Assembly (NCBI RefSeq): GCF_900104795.1
Contig: NZ_FNTG01000002.1
Location: forward strand, 2,480,001-2,544,000
Origin: Burkholderia sp. WP9
GTDB lineage: Bacteria; Pseudomonadota; Gammaproteobacteria; Burkholderiales; Burkholderiaceae
Direction: 5' to 3'
DNA length: 64,000 nucleotides
Made by a program: the position numbers and the translations under genes
Part shown: positions 17,452 through 25,177 of the stretch, piece after piece
Layout of the letters: each line of letters starts with the position of its first letter
How positions within the stretch are numbered: position 1 is the stretch's first letter
The notes under the pieces: model-generated
What the model saw: only the letters and a program-made list of their open reading frames with translations
Databases searched by the model: none
What the model was told of the DNA's origin: nothing

Positions 17452-17610
17452 TAAGGTTGCGTGGCCCGTTGCCGCTCTCGGCCGCGGGTCCACTTCGGCT
17501 TTCCGGTCCGTTTGCAATCACGTGGAGCAGGATTTTGTGATTGCAGTCGATACTGGCCGTAGCAGCAGCCGTGATGCGGTTGCGAGGCCAACCCCGAAGG
17601 TCTCGTCCGT

Positions 17611-17967
17611 CTATGCGCTGCCGCATAGCTTCGCCACGGTTGTGAGAACGACGTTGATAGGCGCCGGCTTTTGCAGGCAGACGTGGTAACAATTCGCTTC
17701 ACGAGCGGCCGCTGGCGCTGCTGTATGAACAAGCACAGGAATGCGCGAAAGTTCGGGATTCGATTTGATATGACGGCATAGCTCCCGACCATCAACCAGC
17801 GGCATCATCCAGTCGGTGATGATAAGGTGCGGCCGCCAACCGTCCAGAATCCGGAGCGCCTCCGCGCCGTTCGCGGCGCATCGCACTTCGTACCCCTCTC
17901 CAATGAGAATCAGATGCCAGGCCGTCAAAATATCCGGCTCGTCATCGACAAGCAGAATCGAGTGCAT
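17611..17967 (-). CDS. Stand-alone response regulator receiver protein
   Basis: This 118-residue protein is a single CheY-like receiver with no output domain. The start is MHSILLVDDEPD. Acidic pocket D8/D9, phospho-acceptor D52 (LIITDWMMP), the switch Thr (VLVHTAAP) and conserved Lys (CLQKPAP) are all present, so phosphorylation is likely. There is no histidine kinase gene next to it. It lies divergent, about 550 bases upstream of the PYP gene, so a link to the light module is possible but unproven. Single-domain receivers usually work by protein contact, for example on kinases or diguanylate cyclases. Confidence 0.88.
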   Translation of the reverse strand: MHSILLVDDEPDILTAWHLILIGEGYEVRCAANGAEALRILDGWRPHLIITDWMMPLVDGRELCRHIKSNPELSRIPVLVHTAAPAAAREANCYHVCLQKPAPINVVLTTVAKLCGSA

Positions 17968-18513
17968 GAGACGACTGCCTATATGTGTTGAGTAAGCGGA
18001 TACGTGAGCGTGCAATTCGCGTTCCCGGTGTCTTCGCGCCGGTTACCCGTTTGCTGACGCTCGCTTATTTGGGGCAGCTGACCGGGGGGGCTGTTCAAAC
18101 GAACTTGGGATGGCTCGGGCGTCGACGAATGAGGACAGAGTGCTCCCATCGCAGAACTTATGTTGCGCCTGAAACGCGCGAGCAATTCGTACCTCCAGTA
18201 CGTCCTTCGTAAGCTCGCGGCAATTTGTGCAGGGCAACTCATGCGGATCCATAGAAAAGGCTGTTGTTTTGTTGGGCGGGTAGATCTTTCCTGGCCACGC
18301 TATGGCAACGCGGCGACAGTGCGCCCAATTGGACGTTATTACCGACAGGCTCTGGCAATCTCCAGCGCCGCTCTCGCGTTAAAGTTATTTCGTCGGAGGC
18401 CGTTATGCCGTCTATTGGGCGGTTTCTTTGGGGCAACAAGTTGTCGCTATTTTCACCAGAAGCAGCACTTGGAACTCTTTGGATAAATAGTCGGTACGAA
18501 CGAACTTGGTGTT
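17968..18513. other. Intergenic region before the PYP gene; no recognisable gene
   Basis: About 545 bases between the receiver gene and the PYP gene. Short open frames occur on both strands, but none resembles a known protein or has a convincing ribosome-binding site. I could not identify a clear sigma70 promoter. It must contain the control of the light module, since the next gene downstream begins a tightly packed transcript. Confidence 0.4.
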
Positions 18514-18906
18514 GTGGCGCCACACGGGATAAGCGTGAACGAAGAATTCGAGGCGGTGCGAATAGGGGAGCTGGCTGGATTGGATGCTGCCCGGTTAGAT
18601 GAAATGCAGTTTGGCGTCATCGGGTTAAGCCCGGATGCACTTGTCACGGTCTATAACGCGACCGAATCGAAGAACGCCGGATTGCGGGCGCAGCGAGTAT
18701 TAGGGAAACATTTCTTCGAAGAGGTGGCCCCGTGCATGAATAATTTCATGGTGGCGCAGCGCTTCGAAGACGAGGAGGCAATTGACGATATTGTTCCCTA
18801 CGTTTTGACCTTGCGCATGCGCCCGACCCCGGTGCGGCTCAGGCTGCTGAAAGCGCCGGACTGCGCGACGCGGTTTGTCCTGATTGAGCGAAAGGCGGCC
18901 CATTGA
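18514..18906 (+). CDS. pyp: Photoactive yellow protein homologue (blue-light PAS photoreceptor)
   Basis: PYP is a ~125-residue soluble PAS protein that binds p-coumaric acid by a thioester and responds to blue light. This 130-residue homologue aligns over its length with Halorhodospira PYP: MQFGVIGLSPDA for LAFGAIQLDGDG, VYNATES for QYNAAEG, VLGKHFFEEVAPC for VIGKNFFKDVAPC. Chromophore Cys69 is Cys74 here, and the phenolate partners Tyr42 and Glu46 are Tyr47 and Glu51, with identical spacing. Thr50 and Arg52 are changed to Ala55 and Leu57, which could shift colour or photocycle rate. The start GTG is weak; GTG 18535 is an alternative. Its stop overlaps the start of the diguanylate cyclase gene. 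Confidence 0.88.
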   Translation: MAPHGISVNEEFEAVRIGELAGLDAARLDEMQFGVIGLSPDALVTVYNATESKNAGLRAQRVLGKHFFEEVAPCMNNFMVAQRFEDEEAIDDIVPYVLTLRMRPTPVRLRLLKAPDCATRFVLIERKAAH

Positions 18907-20243
18907 ACGCGGTGAATCCAGACACGAACGACCTCGAGTCCGAATACGAGGCGTTACTCTCGTTCATGTACCTGTCCCCGGTCGGGATTATCCGCAGCGA
19001 CCAGGCGGGTCTCGTGGACATGATGAACCCCCTTGCCGCGCAGCTTCTCATGCCTCTGGTAAAAGGCGGCGGTATCGAGAATATTTTCGATAGCCTGGCG
19101 TCAGTGGCGCCGGAGCTTCGCAACCTGGCGGCCAGCTTTGAGGGCGAGCGGGGGGCAGTGTGTGAAAACCACCGGGTGTTTGTGACGCCGGCCAAAGAGG
19201 GGGCGGTCGTGCTCGCCTGTTCCATCATCAAGGTGGGTGAGAATCTGCTGATGACGGTGCTGACGGACATTTCCCGGCAGGTTGCGGCCGAGAGAAGAGC
19301 GCGGCAAACAGAATCGTGGCTGGCCGGAATCTACACGAGCGTCAACGACTTTGCTTTCTTCTCGCTTGATGCGCAAGGGCGTATTGAAAGCTGGAATCCA
19401 TCGGTTGAACGCCTGACGGGATTTGGCGAGACCGACGTCGTCGGGCACACACTCTCGTGCTTTTATGCCCGCGACGAGCACGTATCGCACCGTTCACCGG
19501 AGCATATCGCGCTAACGCGTGACGAGGGTTGGCACGTGGAGGAGTTCTGGTGTGAAACCAGGGGCGGTCGACGCTACTGGGGGCAGGTTCTCGTCGCGGT
19601 GCTGCGCGAAGAGGAAGGGGAGATAGCGGGGTATTCGGTCGTTCTGAGAGACGTGACGGAGCGCAAGGTGAGCAGCGACAACCTTGCGCGCCTGCTTACG
19701 ACCGACCACCTGACAGGCGTATCGAGCCGGGCCCACTTCTTTGAAGTTGCCGAATCCGAGGTGGCGCGCGCCGAACGACATGGGCGGGCATTGTCGGTCG
19801 TTATGCTGGACGCGGATTACTTCAAGCGGATCAACGACACGGCCGGGCATCAGGCGGGTGACGAGGTTTTGAAACGGATCGCCGGCGAAGCGAAGGGGCT
19901 GTTACGCACGTCCGACACGGTCGCGAGACTCGGCGGCGAGGAATTCATTCTGATGCTGCCGTCTACGACGGCCGGCGAGGCGTTGGTGGTCGCTGAGCGA
20001 CTGCGGGTTGCGGTCGAGCGGGCGCGAATCGAAACGGCGGTCGGGCAATTGAAAGCGACGATCAGTCTGGGCGTCGCGACATTGAGTCCTGCCAATCCGA
20101 CGCTCCAGGGATTGCTGGCTGCCGCCGACCGCGCGCTCTACGACGCGAAAAGAGCAGGGCGGAACTGCGTACGCGGCGAGGTTTTGGAGCCGGCGGGCGA
20201 AGCATGCTCCGCCTGCGAAGAAGCCAACACACCGGGAGACTGA
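18903..20243 (+). CDS. PAS-PAS-GGDEF diguanylate cyclase
   Basis: The enzyme makes the second messenger c-di-GMP from two GTP. In 446 residues I see a first PAS-like region (~15-125, SPVGIIRSDQAGLVDMMNP), a second PAS/PAC (~140-255, DFAFFSLDAQGRIESWNPSVERLTGF ... YSVVLRDVTERK) and a GGDEF domain (~270-430). The active loop is GGEEF at 344-348, and an RxxD inhibitory site (RTSD) lies five residues before it, so the enzyme should be active and product-inhibited. No membrane segment. Its TTG start overlaps the PYP stop (TTGA), implying coupled translation and probably a direct functional link with PYP. GTG 18912 is another possible start. Confidence 0.93.
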   Translation: MNAVNPDTNDLESEYEALLSFMYLSPVGIIRSDQAGLVDMMNPLAAQLLMPLVKGGGIENIFDSLASVAPELRNLAASFEGERGAVCENHRVFVTPAKEGAVVLACSIIKVGENLLMTVLTDISRQVAAERRARQTESWLAGIYTSVNDFAFFSLDAQGRIESWNPSVERLTGFGETDVVGHTLSCFYARDEHVSHRSPEHIALTRDEGWHVEEFWCETRGGRRYWGQVLVAVLREEEGEIAGYSVVLRDVTERKVSSDNLARLLTTDHLTGVSSRAHFFEVAESEVARAERHGRALSVVMLDADYFKRINDTAGHQAGDEVLKRIAGEAKGLLRTSDTVARLGGEEFILMLPSTTAGEALVVAERLRVAVERARIETAVGQLKATISLGVATLSPANPTLQGLLAAADRALYDAKRAGRNCVRGEVLEPAGEACSACEEANTPGD

Positions 20244-20310
20244 CGGCCGCCCCGCAGCAGGACCAACGGCGTCAACCCTAATCAGCAAACAGTCAGCGCG
20301 ATAACACCAG

Positions 20311-21102
20311 ATGGATTCCTTCATGATTCGTAGCCCCGATGGGGTGGCGGGACAGCCGCAACGATGTTCCGGGTGCAGGGACATAACGCCCCTGCCGATA
20401 GAGATCGATTTCGCGTTTCAGCCCATCGTCGATGTGAGCGCCCAGGCTGTTTTCGCATGCGAGGCGCTCGTGCGTGGTGCGAGCGGGGAATCCGCGCACT
20501 CGGTGCTGTCGCAGATCGACGATGCAAACAAATACCATTTTGACCAGCGCTGCCGGCAGGTTGCGATCGCCAGTGCAGCCGCGTTAGGTCTCGACTCGTT
20601 TCTCTCCATCAATTTCATGCCCAACGCGGTCTATCGGCCGGAGGTATGCATCAGGAGCACTCTGGAAGCTGCGCAGACGCATGGTTTCCCGATTGAAAAA
20701 ATCATATTCGAGACTGTTGAGGGCGAACATCTGGCCGACCGCACACATCTGGTCGAGATTTTCAGGGCATACAAGACATTTGGCTTCCTGACGGCAATTG
20801 ATGATTTCGGAGCCGGTTATTCGGGGCTTGCTCTGCTGGTGGATTTCCAGCCCGACATCATCAAGCTCGACATGGGACTGCTCCGCGGTATCGACACTGA
20901 CCCGGTGCGTCAGCGCATCGTGCGAGGCGTGATTTCAATTTGCGACGATCTTGGTATCCGTGTCGTGGCGGAAGGCATCGAAACCAGGGGCGAACGAGAC
21001 TTCTTTGTTGCGCATGGAGTCAGGCTGATGCAGGGCTATTTTTTCGCAAAACCAGGTTTTAAAACGATTCCGGCAATCGATAAGCTAAAGTGCTTTACAT
21101 AG
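20311..21102 (+). CDS. EAL-domain c-di-GMP phosphodiesterase
   Basis: EAL proteins split c-di-GMP to pGpG. This 263-residue protein is almost only an EAL domain, with a short N-terminal stretch containing a Cys pair (RCSGCRD). Catalytic features are complete: E51-A-L-V-R, the Asn in SINFMPN, Glu in IIFETVEGE, the metal Asp pair in AIDDFGAGYSG, Lys in IIKLDMG, Glu in VAEGIET and Gln in LMQGYFF. It resembles the EAL part of blue-light BLUF-EAL proteins. It lies 67 bases after the cyclase on the same strand, so PYP, cyclase and phosphodiesterase likely form one operon that sets c-di-GMP in both directions. Confidence 0.92.
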   Translation: MDSFMIRSPDGVAGQPQRCSGCRDITPLPIEIDFAFQPIVDVSAQAVFACEALVRGASGESAHSVLSQIDDANKYHFDQRCRQVAIASAAALGLDSFLSINFMPNAVYRPEVCIRSTLEAAQTHGFPIEKIIFETVEGEHLADRTHLVEIFRAYKTFGFLTAIDDFGAGYSGLALLVDFQPDIIKLDMGLLRGIDTDPVRQRIVRGVISICDDLGIRVVAEGIETRGERDFFVAHGVRLMQGYFFAKPGFKTIPAIDKLKCFT

Positions 21103-21188
21103 CCATAAGCATGCTGGTCTGCTCGCAGTCCAGGTTACCTTGCACCTTTGATCTGGCTTGCTGACTGCTTTGTCGATTGGGCCGCCAG

Positions 21189-22184
21189 CTACCGGGTGGC
21201 GATTCGCTCGGCCAGCATCCGGCCGCTGTGCCACGCACCCTCCACTCTGCCGCCGTTGAGCCAATCGCCACACAATGCCAGGCCGCTGGCTTCATCCCAG
21301 ATGTATCCGGGCGCGGGCTCCTCGCTAGGCTCGGTGTCAGCAAATCGCCAGCGGTGTGCCGTCCATTCGGTGGACTTTTGGCCGCCGTGCAGCGCAAACG
21401 CTTCGAGCAGACAATCCGCGACACGTTCCGCGCTGGCGTCGATGTAAAGCTCGCTCCAGTCCGCGTTCGCGTGCAACAGCCATGTTTCGGGGCCGTTGCG
21501 CCCCGGCTTGCTGCTGTCGCGCGCCATCCAGCGCAGAGGCCCCTGATTGATGAAAGCGGCATCGAACGGCACCGGCACGCGAGCGGGCAGGCGCACCATG
21601 AGTGCCCAACATGGGCGCATCGCGGTCTCGCGTGCGAGCGCCGCCAGTCCCGTCGCGGCTTCACGCAGCAAGTCCGCCGCCTGCGGGGCGGGCATGGCGA
21701 GGACCACGACGTCGAAGCGATCCGCAAGCATGCCCTGTTCGGCTGACACGAGACGCCACTGTCGCCCATCCCGATGCAATGCCGTGACAGTGCAACCCAA
21801 GGTCACCGACTGAGCGTCAGCCAGAAACTTCGCGGGCGAGTTCATTGACGGCGTACCGACGAAGCGGTCTTGCTTGCTCGCCCATGCGGTTTGTGCGGAC
21901 CCATCGAGCACCGCGATTCGTGCAGGCCATATCGCGGCGACGCCCGCGTTCTGCCAACGCGCCACTTCCGCCTGGAAGAGCGGATCGCGAGCGGTGAAGT
22001 ACTGCGCCCCATGGTCGCACTGCCAGTCGCCTTGGCGACGGGTGCTCATCCGCCCGGCAGGCCCGCGGCTTTTGTCGAACACGTTGACCTCGAACCCGGA
22101 GCGGCGCAGCACCGTCGCGCATGACAACCCGGCGATCCCCGCACCGACGACGGCTATTCGTGGGCCTTTCCGTTTTATAGGCAT
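21189..22184 (-). CDS. FAD/NAD(P)-binding oxidoreductase of the renalase-like type found in light-response clusters
   Basis: This 331-residue flavoprotein starts at MPIKRKGPRIAVVG. The dinucleotide-binding motif VGAGIAGLSCATVLRRSGFEVNVFDKSRGPAGRMSTRR is followed by the family hallmark DHGAQYFTARD. The end GLALCGDWLNGGRVEGAWHSGRMLAERI closes the FAD site. Relatives commonly sit beside photolyase, MerR/LitR and folE genes and are light-induced in some bacteria; their reaction is not established. It faces the PYP operon and diverges from the MerR gene over a shared 223-base control region, as expected for a member of the regulator's target set. Confidence 0.85.
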   Translation of the reverse strand: MPIKRKGPRIAVVGAGIAGLSCATVLRRSGFEVNVFDKSRGPAGRMSTRRQGDWQCDHGAQYFTARDPLFQAEVARWQNAGVAAIWPARIAVLDGSAQTAWASKQDRFVGTPSMNSPAKFLADAQSVTLGCTVTALHRDGRQWRLVSAEQGMLADRFDVVVLAMPAPQAADLLREAATGLAALARETAMRPCWALMVRLPARVPVPFDAAFINQGPLRWMARDSSKPGRNGPETWLLHANADWSELYIDASAERVADCLLEAFALHGGQKSTEWTAHRWRFADTEPSEEPAPGYIWDEASGLALCGDWLNGGRVEGAWHSGRMLAERIATR

Positions 22185-22292
22185 GACTTCTCTCTCCAGG
22201 GTTCGCGGACTCGCAGGGACCCGCCACCAAAGCCAATTTCGCATTGAGGTGCGTCACAGTGACTCTGATTATGGAGTCTTGATGTCCAAGTA

Positions 22293-22359
22293 TGACACAT
22301 TGACGATCTTTTTTAACTTTGATGAGGCGACGCGACTCGCAATAATGATTCACATTGAC
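22293..22359 (+). promoter_or_regulatory. Repeated ACATTGAC motif in the oxidoreductase/merR divergent promoter
   Basis: TGACACATTGACG lies at 22293-22305 and a shorter copy CACATTGAC at 22351-22359, between divergent light-cluster genes. The 13-mer recurs exactly just before folE (23479-23491). A nearby GACTC-N8-GAGTC palindrome starts at 22261. These may be binding sites for the MerR regulator. A published LitR class II site of the TGTACA-N12-TGTACA kind, as I recall it, is not seen. Confidence 0.4.
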
Positions 22360-22407
22360 TCGAAACAGGAATATTATCCCGAGTCATGCAACGCTAAAGG
22401 AATGGCC

Positions 22408-23415
22408 ATGCCGTCGCCCTCCGTCGAAGACACGTCGCCCGCTCGCAATTACAGGAGTGGGGAGGCCGCCCGGCTCGCGCGGATGCCGGTCACGAGGCTC
22501 AGGCTTTGGGAGCGGCGCTACGAAGTGGTGGGCCCGGCCAAAAGTGAGGCCGGACAGCGCCTGTATTCCGAGGACGACGTGCGCCGGCTGGTTCTGATCA
22601 ACGCGCTGGTGCAGCGCGGCCACGCGATTGGAGCGATTGCGCGGCTCGAGCGCGAGCAACTCGAGTTTCTTGCCGCAGGGGAGGCGTCCAGCGGCAGATC
22701 GCGCCCCACCAATGCCAGTCACGAGGTCAGGTTCCGGCTCACGCTAGTGGGGGAGAACCTGGCCCGGCGCCTGGCTGAAACGGGTATCGATCTGCGGCGC
22801 TACGGCGTTGGCAAGCTCGCGGAGTATGCGGATCTCGCGGCGGCGCGCGAAGGCGCGTCATCTGAAGGGGAAGAGGCGAACCTTCTGCTGCTGCGTGTTC
22901 CTTCGCTGCATGAGGACGCCGCTTCGGACGTTCTCGCGCTCAGCGACGCCTGCGGCGCGGCGGCGGTTGCCGTGGTGTACGGCTTCGGTACGGGGCGCGC
23001 GGCAGAAGCGTTGCGCCTCGCGGGTGTGCGGCTGTATCGGGAGCCCGACAGCAGGACCGAGCTTCGCCAGATGCTCGGCGATCTGTGTCACAGCGCTCGG
23101 GTGGCGCATGAGGCCGGCGAAGCACCCTCCTGGTCGCGCTCGCCACGTCGGTACGACGACGCCGAGCTCGAAGCCATCGCTGCCCGCTCGTCAACGATTG
23201 CCTGCGAATGTCCGCGGCACCTTGCTGAACTGGTGATGCAACTGTCGACGTTCGAATCCTATAGCGACGAATGCACGTCGCGCTCGGCGCACGACGTTGC
23301 GTTACACCGGCATCTCGGCGACGTCGCCAATCGCGCGCGCGTGCTGATCGAGTCGGCGCTCGAGCGTGTGGTGCGCGAAGAAGGCTGGTCGCCTCAACCG
23401 CATCAGACGGATTGA
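22408..23415 (+). CDS. MerR-family regulator of the LitR/CarH type, lacking the cobalamin ligand
   Basis: LitR/CarH proteins repress light genes in the dark; the best-known ones sense light by adenosyl-B12. The N-terminal MerR helix-turn-helix (YRSGEAARLARMPVTRLRLWERRY) carries the WERRY motif typical of that group. The C-terminal ~200 residues fold like the B12 region (LLLLRVPSLHEDAASDVLALSDACGAAAVAVVYGFG), but the DxHxxG motif is replaced near VGENLARRLAETG, with no His. That resembles class II LitR of Pseudomonas putida, which needs a separate photosensor. I chose ATG 22408 because AAAGGA is well spaced; ATG 22402 is two codons earlier. Divergent from the FAD oxidoreductase and followed by folE. 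Confidence 0.85.
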   Translation: MPSPSVEDTSPARNYRSGEAARLARMPVTRLRLWERRYEVVGPAKSEAGQRLYSEDDVRRLVLINALVQRGHAIGAIARLEREQLEFLAAGEASSGRSRPTNASHEVRFRLTLVGENLARRLAETGIDLRRYGVGKLAEYADLAAAREGASSEGEEANLLLLRVPSLHEDAASDVLALSDACGAAAVAVVYGFGTGRAAEALRLAGVRLYREPDSRTELRQMLGDLCHSARVAHEAGEAPSWSRSPRRYDDAELEAIAARSSTIACECPRHLAELVMQLSTFESYSDECTSRSAHDVALHRHLGDVANRARVLIESALERVVREEGWSPQPHQTD

Positions 23416-23478
23416 GATGGGTCTTCGCGAGTCGGGGCTTACAGCGCAAGGTTTACAGCGCACGTTACGCGTACGGAT

Positions 23479-23491
23479 TGACACATTGACG
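23479..23491 (+). promoter_or_regulatory. Second exact copy of TGACACATTGACG, just upstream of folE
   Basis: The 13-mer ends 17 bases before the folE start codon. It is part of ATTGACACATTGACG, two ATTGAC half-copies eight bases apart. The position is too close to the start codon to serve as a normal -35 box for this ATG, so an operator role is more plausible. Shared with the oxidoreductase/merR control region. Confidence 0.35.
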
Positions 23492-23507
23492 TTGGGAGAA
23501 AAGTCTC

Positions 23508-24233
23508 ATGGAATCAGTCGCGCAGGACATACGCCACGGCCTGGAGCTGGGCGAGGGCGTGCCGCTTTCGCAGCGGATCAGATGTCGGCTTCTCAGTGCG
23601 GGAGCCCGATTCCACGCGAACGACAACATCGCCGACTACCTTCGCGAGGGAGAACTGGAGCTGCTGCAAAAGGAAGTCGCGGACAAGCTACAGGGCGTTT
23701 TGCGCTCGCTCGTCATCGATGTCGACAACGATCACAACACGCAAGAAACCGCGCAACGCGTGGCAAAAATGTTCGTTCGCGAAGTCTTTGCGGGACGATA
23801 CGACACCGCGCCGGCTGTCACCGAATTTCCGAATGTCGAACGGCTCAATGAATTGATGATCGTGGGCCCGCTGCGTGTGCGCAGCGCCTGCTCCCATCAC
23901 CTGTGTCCGATCATGGGCCGGGTCTGGATTGGAGTGATGCCCAACGAGAGTTCAAACCTCATTGGCCTGTCCAAGTACGGCCGCCTGATCAACTGGATCA
24001 TGACCCGGCCGCAGATCCAGGAAGAAGCCGTCAAGCAGATCGCGGATCTGCTCGAAGAACGCATCCAGCCCGACGGGCTTGCCGTGGTGCTGGAGGCCGA
24101 CCACTTCTGCATGCATTGGCGCGGCACGAAAGACGACGACGCAAAAATGGTGAACAGCGTGATGCGCGGTTCATTTCTTCGGGATCCCGCATTGCGTCGC
24201 GAGTTTCTGGATCTTCTGCCGGGTCGGAATTGA
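23508..24233 (+). CDS. folE: GTP cyclohydrolase I (FolE type)
   Basis: The enzyme turns GTP into 7,8-dihydroneopterin triphosphate, the first step to folates and pterins. The 241-residue protein has the full catalytic core: NVERLNELMIVGPLRVRSACSHHLCPIMGRVWIGV with the zinc Cys and His, SKYGRLINWIMTRPQIQEEAVKQIADLL, and EADHFCMHWRG with the third zinc Cys. A GGGAGAAAAG ribosome-binding site precedes ATG. Extra folE copies often lie in bacterial light-response clusters, where they may feed the folate antenna of photolyase; the position after a LitR-type regulator fits that reading. Confidence 0.92.
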   Translation: MESVAQDIRHGLELGEGVPLSQRIRCRLLSAGARFHANDNIADYLREGELELLQKEVADKLQGVLRSLVIDVDNDHNTQETAQRVAKMFVREVFAGRYDTAPAVTEFPNVERLNELMIVGPLRVRSACSHHLCPIMGRVWIGVMPNESSNLIGLSKYGRLINWIMTRPQIQEEAVKQIADLLEERIQPDGLAVVLEADHFCMHWRGTKDDDAKMVNSVMRGSFLRDPALRREFLDLLPGRN

Positions 24234-24310
24234 CTGGCAGGGCAGAAAGTGGGCCTTGGTGGTCGGTATTAAATGGCTGAACGTAGCGGGTACTTGTCGG
24301 GAGTGAGGCA

Positions 24311-25060
24311 ATGGCGGCGATCTGGATTACTGGCGCGAGCGGTGCAGTCGGATCTGCACTGGCCCGGAGACTGTCAGCGCGCGGTCTAAGCGTTGTTCTT
24401 ACATCTCGCGATGGAGCGAGGCTCACCGAACTCGCCGACGAACTTGGAGAGCGCGCACTCGCTGCACCCGCCGACGCAACCGATGCAGCGCAGGTGCAAT
24501 GTGCAATTCAGGCAGGTATTGAGCGCTTTGGAGAAGTGACCGGTGTCGCCCATTGCGTTGGATCGATTCTGATCAGACCGCTGCACCTGACCAGCGAAGC
24601 GGATATGCGCGCGACTCTTGCCGATAACTACATCAGTGCGTGGCACGTGCTTCGGGCTTTCGTTACCGCTGCGCTCGCCCATCGCAAGCCCTCGAGCGCC
24701 GTACTGGTGGGCACGGTTGCGGCGCAGTCTGGATTTCCGAATCACGAGGCCATTGCCGGTGCAAAGGCCGCGGTGGCGGCGCTCGCCGTCACGGCAGCCG
24801 CGACCTACGCTGAGCGGGGTATTCGGGTGAATTGCGTTCATCCAGGATTAACTGTCTCGAACATGTCGTCGAAGCTCACCGGCTCACCTGAGTCGATCGC
24901 CTGGATGTCAAAGCTCAATCCGATGAGGCGTCTGGGTCAAGGCGAGGACGCGGCGGCGTTGATCGACTTTCTGCTAGGCGATGATGCTGGCTGGATCACT
25001 GGCCAGCAGATCGGGGTGGACGGCGGCCATGGCATCCTTCATTCGATGGCGGGCGCGTGA
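24311..25060 (+). CDS. SDR-fold protein lacking the catalytic tyrosine
   Basis: This 249-residue short-chain dehydrogenase/reductase-like protein has a Rossmann start ITGASGAVGSALARRL, the segment GERALAAPADATD, and an SDR end LLGDDAGWITGQQIGVDGGHG. The usual YxxxK active site is missing: Lys152 is present (AIAGAKAAV), but the Tyr position is Ile148, and the Ser region reads VGTVAA. It may bind NAD(P) without normal catalysis or use other chemistry. It lies 77 bases after folE on the same strand. SDR genes are common members of light-induced clusters, so I place it in the same regulon by inference. Confidence 0.85.
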   Translation: MAAIWITGASGAVGSALARRLSARGLSVVLTSRDGARLTELADELGERALAAPADATDAAQVQCAIQAGIERFGEVTGVAHCVGSILIRPLHLTSEADMRATLADNYISAWHVLRAFVTAALAHRKPSSAVLVGTVAAQSGFPNHEAIAGAKAAVAALAVTAAATYAERGIRVNCVHPGLTVSNMSSKLTGSPESIAWMSKLNPMRRLGQGEDAAALIDFLLGDDAGWITGQQIGVDGGHGILHSMAGA

Positions 25061-25177
25061 TGCGATATCGTTACGCGTCAGTCAGCGTGGAGTTTTCCCG
25101 AATCGCTTCGGGCTTCAGTTGCCTGCGCGTGGAATCGGCAGGCCTCCGATGGGGCGCCCACGGCCCAACGGAACAGA

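Follow-up and report, generated by a model that had tools for sequence, protein, structure and literature searches.

Does a photoactive yellow protein (PYP) encoded beside a LitR-type MerR regulator act as the light sensor of that regulator, or do two separate light systems share a neighbourhood? The question is raised by a 64,000-nucleotide stretch of Burkholderia sp. WP9 (assembly GCF_900104795.1, contig NZ_FNTG01000002.1, positions 2,480,001–2,544,000), hereafter the window, whose coordinates are used below. Module 1 (18535–21102) consists of the genes for PYP, a GGDEF protein and an EAL protein, and module 2 (21189–25060) of those for an FAD-dependent oxidoreductase, the MerR protein, a FolE-type enzyme and an SDR family oxidoreductase; the two meet near 21.1 kb. 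All seven genes listed in an initial annotation are present and intact by Pfam and NCBIfam, with coordinates refined here, and the juxtaposition that it described is real: among 144 genomes of the genus searched, the two sets were seen linked in this one alone. The annotation went on to propose that PYP may be the sensor of the LitR-type regulon, of the cyclic di-GMP (c-di-GMP) enzymes, or of both. In our judgement the locus probably holds two independent, separately inherited light modules, one in which PYP acts on c-di-GMP and one that is a self-sensing regulon of the class III LitR type. Both are known kinds of light module, and their proximity seems incidental, not the mark of a new joint system. 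The observations that carry this reading are the identity of the genes, their active-site residues, adjacency, proportional divergence, the edges of the modules and the lack of a recognisable B12 domain.

PYP and its c-di-GMP partners

The pyp reading frame is open from 18514 (130 residues). Its likely start is the GTG at 18535, because the resulting length of 123 residues is the commonest among the relatives listed (52 of 120); the gene then occupies 18535–18906 on the forward strand. The product, a PYP of the clade C type, resembles solved PYPs across 108 residues (PDB, best E 2e-13) and keeps the Tyr, Glu and Cys of the p-coumaroyl (pCA) chromophore site, equivalent to Tyr42, Glu46 and Cys69. 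In an alignment of 28 of the 120 listed relatives (out of 4195 matches), the Glu and Cys are invariant (28/28), and the Tyr position is occupied by Tyr in 24 and by Phe in 4. Ala and Leu of the window PYP lie opposite the residues that we take to be Thr50 and Arg52 of Halorhodospira halophila PYP.

The start of the second gene (18903–20243, forward strand) overlaps the pyp stop by 4 bp. It encodes a PAS-PAS-GGDEF diguanylate cyclase with an intact GGEEF (Pfam GGDEF, 1.7e-43), and an RxxD motif, which we take to be the inhibitory-site pattern, sits five residues ahead of the GGEEF. A structural model built from 31 sequences (the window protein and 30 rows of collected relatives) has a mean pLDDT of 81.8 and a pTM of 0.47; read by secondary structure, it suggests an N-terminal PAS-like domain that Pfam misses, followed by a helix, a second PAS domain and the GGDEF domain. 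The third gene (20311–21102, forward strand) encodes a predicted EAL c-di-GMP phosphodiesterase with the EAL motif present (Pfam EAL, 1.9e-42). It is RimA-like, scoring 393.9 bits with the NCBIfam RimA model (cut-off 430); that family takes its name from control of ribosomal protein S6 modification.

The tie between PYP and the cyclase extends well beyond the window. Scanning GTDB contigs yielded 214 stretches that encode a PYP, and in all of the best 80, which were kept as loci, a GGDEF homologue lies directly 3' of pyp. Across the 10 genomes of the genus that carry both PYP and the MerR protein, PYP distances scale almost in proportion with GGDEF distances (Mantel r 0.946, p 0.0001). Genomics thus lends good support to PYP control of c-di-GMP, through adjacency, gene overlap and proportional divergence, and this control is the likely function of module 1. 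Here the initial annotation holds, with a proposal that is already in print (PMC9664959 and PMC12826048).

The arrangement agrees with that of clade C PYP systems, in which genes for a diguanylate cyclase and an EAL protein come directly after that for a Burkholderiales single-domain PYP with the equivalents of Tyr42, Glu46 and Cys69 (PMC9664959; PMC12826048). We find no substantial difference from these systems; the genome of the window has two such cassettes, one of them beside a LitR-type module, and the window PYP is placed in clade C by likeness. The PYP–GGDEF neighbourhood of clade C was published by Xing et al. (2022; PMC9664959), who state that no clade C PYP had by then been thoroughly characterised. 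In a 2025 survey, GGDEF/EAL proteins were counted in 29 of 113 predicted pyp operons (Dohmen et al.; PMC12826048); the words MerR and Burkholderia are absent from its main text.

In such a module, blue light would isomerise the p-coumaroyl chromophore of PYP, which would then alter the activity of its translationally coupled GGDEF partner, most likely via the N-terminal PAS domain, on which PYP may dock. The cyclase, together with the EAL enzyme, would set the level of c-di-GMP. We infer this photochemistry, the contact between PYP and the PAS domain and the direction of any change in c-di-GMP. A PYP/PAS-PAS-GGDEF pair that is constant, overlapping and proportionally diverging is a clear candidate for testing the signal output of a single-domain PYP.

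One Burkholderia sp. strain has a GGDEF gene after PYP that is broken by some 2 kb of other sequence (locus L057, 10548–12585), and a second PYP gene of genome G095 (G095:C2:1887539-1887906; loci L023 and L025) is split in two matches, as if frameshifted. Public records label many PYPs of this kind (P0005, P0010 and others) 'phosphonate transporter', which is misleading.

A MerR regulator that fits class III LitR

The first gene of module 2 (21189–22184, reverse strand, start placed from relatives) encodes the FAD-dependent oxidoreductase (Pfam Amino_oxidase and NAD_binding_8) and is divergent from merR (22402–23415, forward strand; Pfam MerR_1). The third (23508–24233, forward strand) matches Pfam GTP cyclohydrolase I (1e-42) and yet falls below all four NCBIfam FolE cut-offs shown, so we regard it as a divergent folE paralogue. 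The fourth (24311–25060, forward strand), for the SDR family oxidoreductase (Pfam adh_short_C2, 7.1e-45), is common to genome G276.

The best PDB profile matches of the MerR protein, 5c8d (CarH) and 3whp, cover the DNA-binding head only. A B12-binding Pfam domain is found, even at E 1, in none of 23 aligned MerR proteins (that of the window and 22 of 55 other collected rows, among which L180 is a fragment), and to that extent the inability to bind B12 that the initial annotation had perceived is borne out. The C-terminus has a CECPxH...FE...S..C motif at residues 268–291, which reads CECPRH...C in the window protein. It is invariant in the alignment (23/23), present in 55 of the 56 collected rows (the exception is a fragment) and found in 12 of 17 class-wide loci scanned. 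The motif is a candidate metal, iron–sulfur or chromophore site, and offers a place where class III LitR may hold its chromophore or cofactor. A structure predicted from the single MerR sequence (mean pLDDT 43.6) was not used.

Two kinds of LitR lacking B12 are relevant here. Class II, represented by PmlR2 of Pseudomonas mendocina, retains a domain resembling B12-binding_2 and is under the control of a short LOV protein, PmSB-LOV (PMC9758184). Class III members come mainly from Burkholderia and have a C-terminus without similarity to a functional domain, and the absorption of the recombinant protein changes with light (PMC9758184); their chromophore is other than B12 (PMC6739363). The window shares with the class II system a B12-less MerR linked to folE, SDR and FAD-oxidoreductase genes, but differs in having no B12-binding_2 match, on which ground a class II assignment was rejected, and no short LOV gene found in the genome. 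With the class III LitR of Burkholderia multivorans it shares a MerR head without a recognisable B12 domain and the bacterial family (PMC9758184 and PMC6739363). The window MerR thus fits class III better than the LOV-dependent class II, with one reservation that tells against our reading, namely that B. multivorans LitR was compared by description only.

The window MerR is about 45–49% identical to relatives in Burkholderia anthina (44.9%) and on Caballeronia plasmids. On the B. anthina plasmid the relative lies near genes for FolE, a sigma-70 family factor, an SDR, an FAD oxidoreductase and a photolyase, and in further genomes MerR relatives adjoin folE, ECF sigma factor or photolyase genes (by eye, partly by Pfam). 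As annotated or compared, pyp is absent from those stretches. Neither a sigma factor nor a photolyase gene adjoins the window merR, unlike relatives with folE, oxidoreductase, SDR, sigma-factor and photolyase genes close by. The LitR of B. multivorans is reported to absorb near 340 nm and to bind the litR and folE2 promoters. Distant MerR relatives in other families of the class adjoin photolyase-related genes (L215, 2888–3937, by Pfam; L223, 191–1363, by eye), and the LitR–photolyase link may be wider than Burkholderiaceae.

Could PYP nevertheless stand in for the short LOV anti-repressor of Pseudomonas, such that illuminated PYP would bind MerR and release the folE and oxidoreductase promoters? 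Such an exchange would be consistent with the juxtaposition in the window, with the known action of short LOV on class II LitR (PMC9758184) and with the failure to find a short LOV in this genome. A search with a short-LOV query (E 1e-8; weaker matches unlisted) gave two matches only, in open frames of 1040 and 1071 residues, which supports the remark in the initial annotation that no LOV gene is near. We nonetheless consider the exchange highly improbable: the window MerR is class III-like and not class II-like, and the GGDEF protein is already the constant neighbour of PYP. That a B12-less LitR depends on a separate sensor is true for class II, whereas class III is reported to respond to light on its own (PMC9758184).

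By this analogy the window MerR probably needs no borrowed sensor, and module 2 is most likely a self-sensing regulon of the class III type. In the dark, the LitR-type protein would repress its own gene, the divergent oxidoreductase gene and folE. Light, acting on its own non-B12 chromophore, would release this repression, and pterin/folate synthesis and redox enzymes would be induced.

The two modules have separate edges

DNA similarity to relatives divides the locus at the boundary between the gene sets. The closer PYP loci match the window up to 21078–21084, and LitR-module loci match it from 21146 (genome G164) or 21191 (G276), which places the junction at 21085–21146. Window positions 18503–21084, or less, are common to PYP loci of other genomes (identity up to 89%), none of which has a LitR module beside it; module 1 stands without an adjoining LitR module in G254, G300, G303 and others. 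Conversely, 21191–25129 is common to G276 (89% over 3.9 kb) and 21146–24328 to G164 (88% over 3.2 kb), with no PYP beside either. PYP is encoded elsewhere in G164, and the MerR protein elsewhere in G254, G300 and G303.

G164 also matches the window on the far side of module 1. A stretch like window 17596–18026, within which lies the gene for a response regulator receiver protein (17611–18015, reverse strand; Pfam Response_reg; 82.6% DNA match over 431 bp in locus L138), is collinear beyond the oxidoreductase in G164, with a KaiC-like gene between; in the window this gap is filled by the PYP module. In G276 and G164 a photolyase-related gene follows the SDR gene or folE; it was not found in the genome of the window.

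Co-occurrence without conserved linkage

Several observations weigh against two unconnected modules. The PYP scores 64.2 bits with the NCBIfam photo_yellow model, below the equivalog cut-off of 143.05 (we take the model to have been built on other PYP clades), and has a sub-threshold PAS match alone in Pfam; the TAL and pCL chromophore genes were not identified in the genome of the window. PYP and MerR co-occur in the genus, where PYP is found in 12, MerR in 44 and both in 10 of 144 genomes: MerR is present in 10 of 12 genomes with PYP vs 34 of 132 without (Fisher p 1.3e-4, relatedness uncorrected). The same holds in a family sample of 249 genomes (PYP in 18, MerR in 44, both in 11), with 11/18 vs 33/231 (Fisher p 2e-5, again uncorrected). 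Some 11 kb separate the two genes in Caballeronia sp. SBC1 and SBC2, and some 25 kb in G025, a genome with a PYP contig that matches Trinickia soli. Finally, PYP and MerR distances correlate (Mantel r 0.51, p 0.012) in the eight genomes with an orthologous second-type MerR, a set that omits G260 and G303, whose MerR proteins, judged by identity, are not orthologues of the others.

Co-occurrence and these loose neighbourhoods also favour PYP as the sensor of the LitR-type regulon, and to this extent the co-occurrence check devised for the initial annotation turned out in its favour. A lack of pyp–merR linkage in relatives, which it named as refuting its proposal, is largely what we observe. Within the genus, pyp and merR lie less than 30 kb apart on one contig in the genome of the window only; none of the other nine genus genomes with both shows this, although linkage across contig ends is possible in G303, with a PYP contig of just 9.8 kb, and in G347, with a contig end 13.8 kb from pyp. 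No MerR gene was detected (tblastn, E 1e-8) near any of the best 80 of the 214 PYP stretches, 56 of which have at least 9.9 kb on both sides of pyp. In the genus, 34 of the 44 MerR-bearing genomes are without PYP. Where the two co-occur, the MerR is in most cases the other paralogue. The genome searches for MerR scored the first 8 or 14 candidates per genome, so weak or extra copies can be missed.

Divergence gives no sign of a special tie either. Over all ten genomes, where, as in the set of eight, the second, unlinked MerR copy represents the genome of the window and G164, PYP and MerR distances give a Mantel r of 0.14 (p 0.20). The higher value in the eight genomes looks like shared ancestry, not a PYP-specific tie, because GGDEF and MerR distances there give nearly the same (r 0.50, p 0.018). 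We found no report of a PYP–LitR link in open-licence literature, so far as its text was accessible. A direct action of illuminated PYP on its class III-type LitR neighbour in this lineage is very doubtful; if it occurs, PYP would not only switch c-di-GMP but also serve as a transcriptional anti-repressor.

A looser connection is that light genes gather in islands by horizontal transfer, where one light signal would co-ordinate c-di-GMP and photoprotection with no direct contact between PYP and LitR. PYP–MerR co-occurrence agrees with this, and so does plasmid pSBC1_3 of SBC1, where 16 kb hold a PYP-GGDEF-EAL set, a second PYP gene by a gene for an AMP-binding protein, a MerR-folE-SDR set about 9 kb from the first and a sigma factor gene, with transposase genes around and between; in locus L066 an SDR gene related to that of the window (61%) lies 5.8 kb from PYP. 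We still hold this account to be unlikely, since such gatherings are seen in three lineages only. In the family sample, where several draft contigs are short, one of the 10 other genomes with both genes has them within 30 kb, against a rough hand estimate from genome size of about 0.13, which is not clearly above chance. Light genes thus sometimes gather, and the PYP–LitR linkage is not a conserved unit.

Candidate operators stop short of pyp

The 9.0 Mb genome has two exact copies of TGACACATTGACG, at 22293–22305 upstream of merR and at 23479–23491 (forward strand) upstream of folE; ten further sites carry one mismatch. Both orthologous loci compared retain the folE copy, and both lack the merR copy. 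Among 19 stretches of LitR and PYP loci, similar sites (12-base core, up to two mismatches) were found in the window and L138 only. The 157 bp upstream of merR (22245–22401) hold, besides one TGACACATTGACG, five copies of GACTC/GAGTC, the densest such stretch of the window. These repeats were noticed after the fact, and GACTC was counted after the same promoters had been inspected. Because the count is post hoc and the merR copy is not kept, the merR-side repeats are a candidate operator only.

These sites bear on one more possibility, namely transcriptional control of the pyp operon by the LitR-type regulator, with PYP as a target of LitR and not its sensor. Position is all that speaks for it. 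The exact TGACACATTGACG copies lie solely at 22293 and 23479, in what is itself a candidate operator, and the 519 bp before the GTG at 18535 contain neither GACTC/GAGTC nor TGACACATTGACG within three mismatches. No promoter seems to travel with the pyp module either, as the DNA shared with relatives begins no earlier than 18503. We judge such control extremely unlikely, and the distribution of sites suggests that pyp lies outside the LitR regulon.

Other light-related genes in the genome

The genome contains a second complete PYP-GGDEF-EAL cassette (G000:C1:701838-702200; locus L137), with a PYP 83% identical to that of the window and no DNA similarity outside the cassette. The second MerR gene (C2:2595630) lies beside one for an ECF-type sigma factor. 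No BLUF gene was found in the genome, and there is one match to the phytochrome domain PHY. Three lyases match PF00221, one of them presumably HutH-like by its motif. As a strict LOV motif pattern misses DCRFLQ/DCRLLQ variants, a protein search was added. Both large LOV-matching proteins are PAS-GGDEF-EAL by eye; GHDCRLLQ is present in one of them, whereas the other lacks a motif of this type. The former, a frame of 1040 residues (G000:C1:3018984-3019352; locus L212), combines by eye PAS, LOV-like (GHDCRLLQ), GGDEF and EAL regions, and is a possible blue-light c-di-GMP enzyme.

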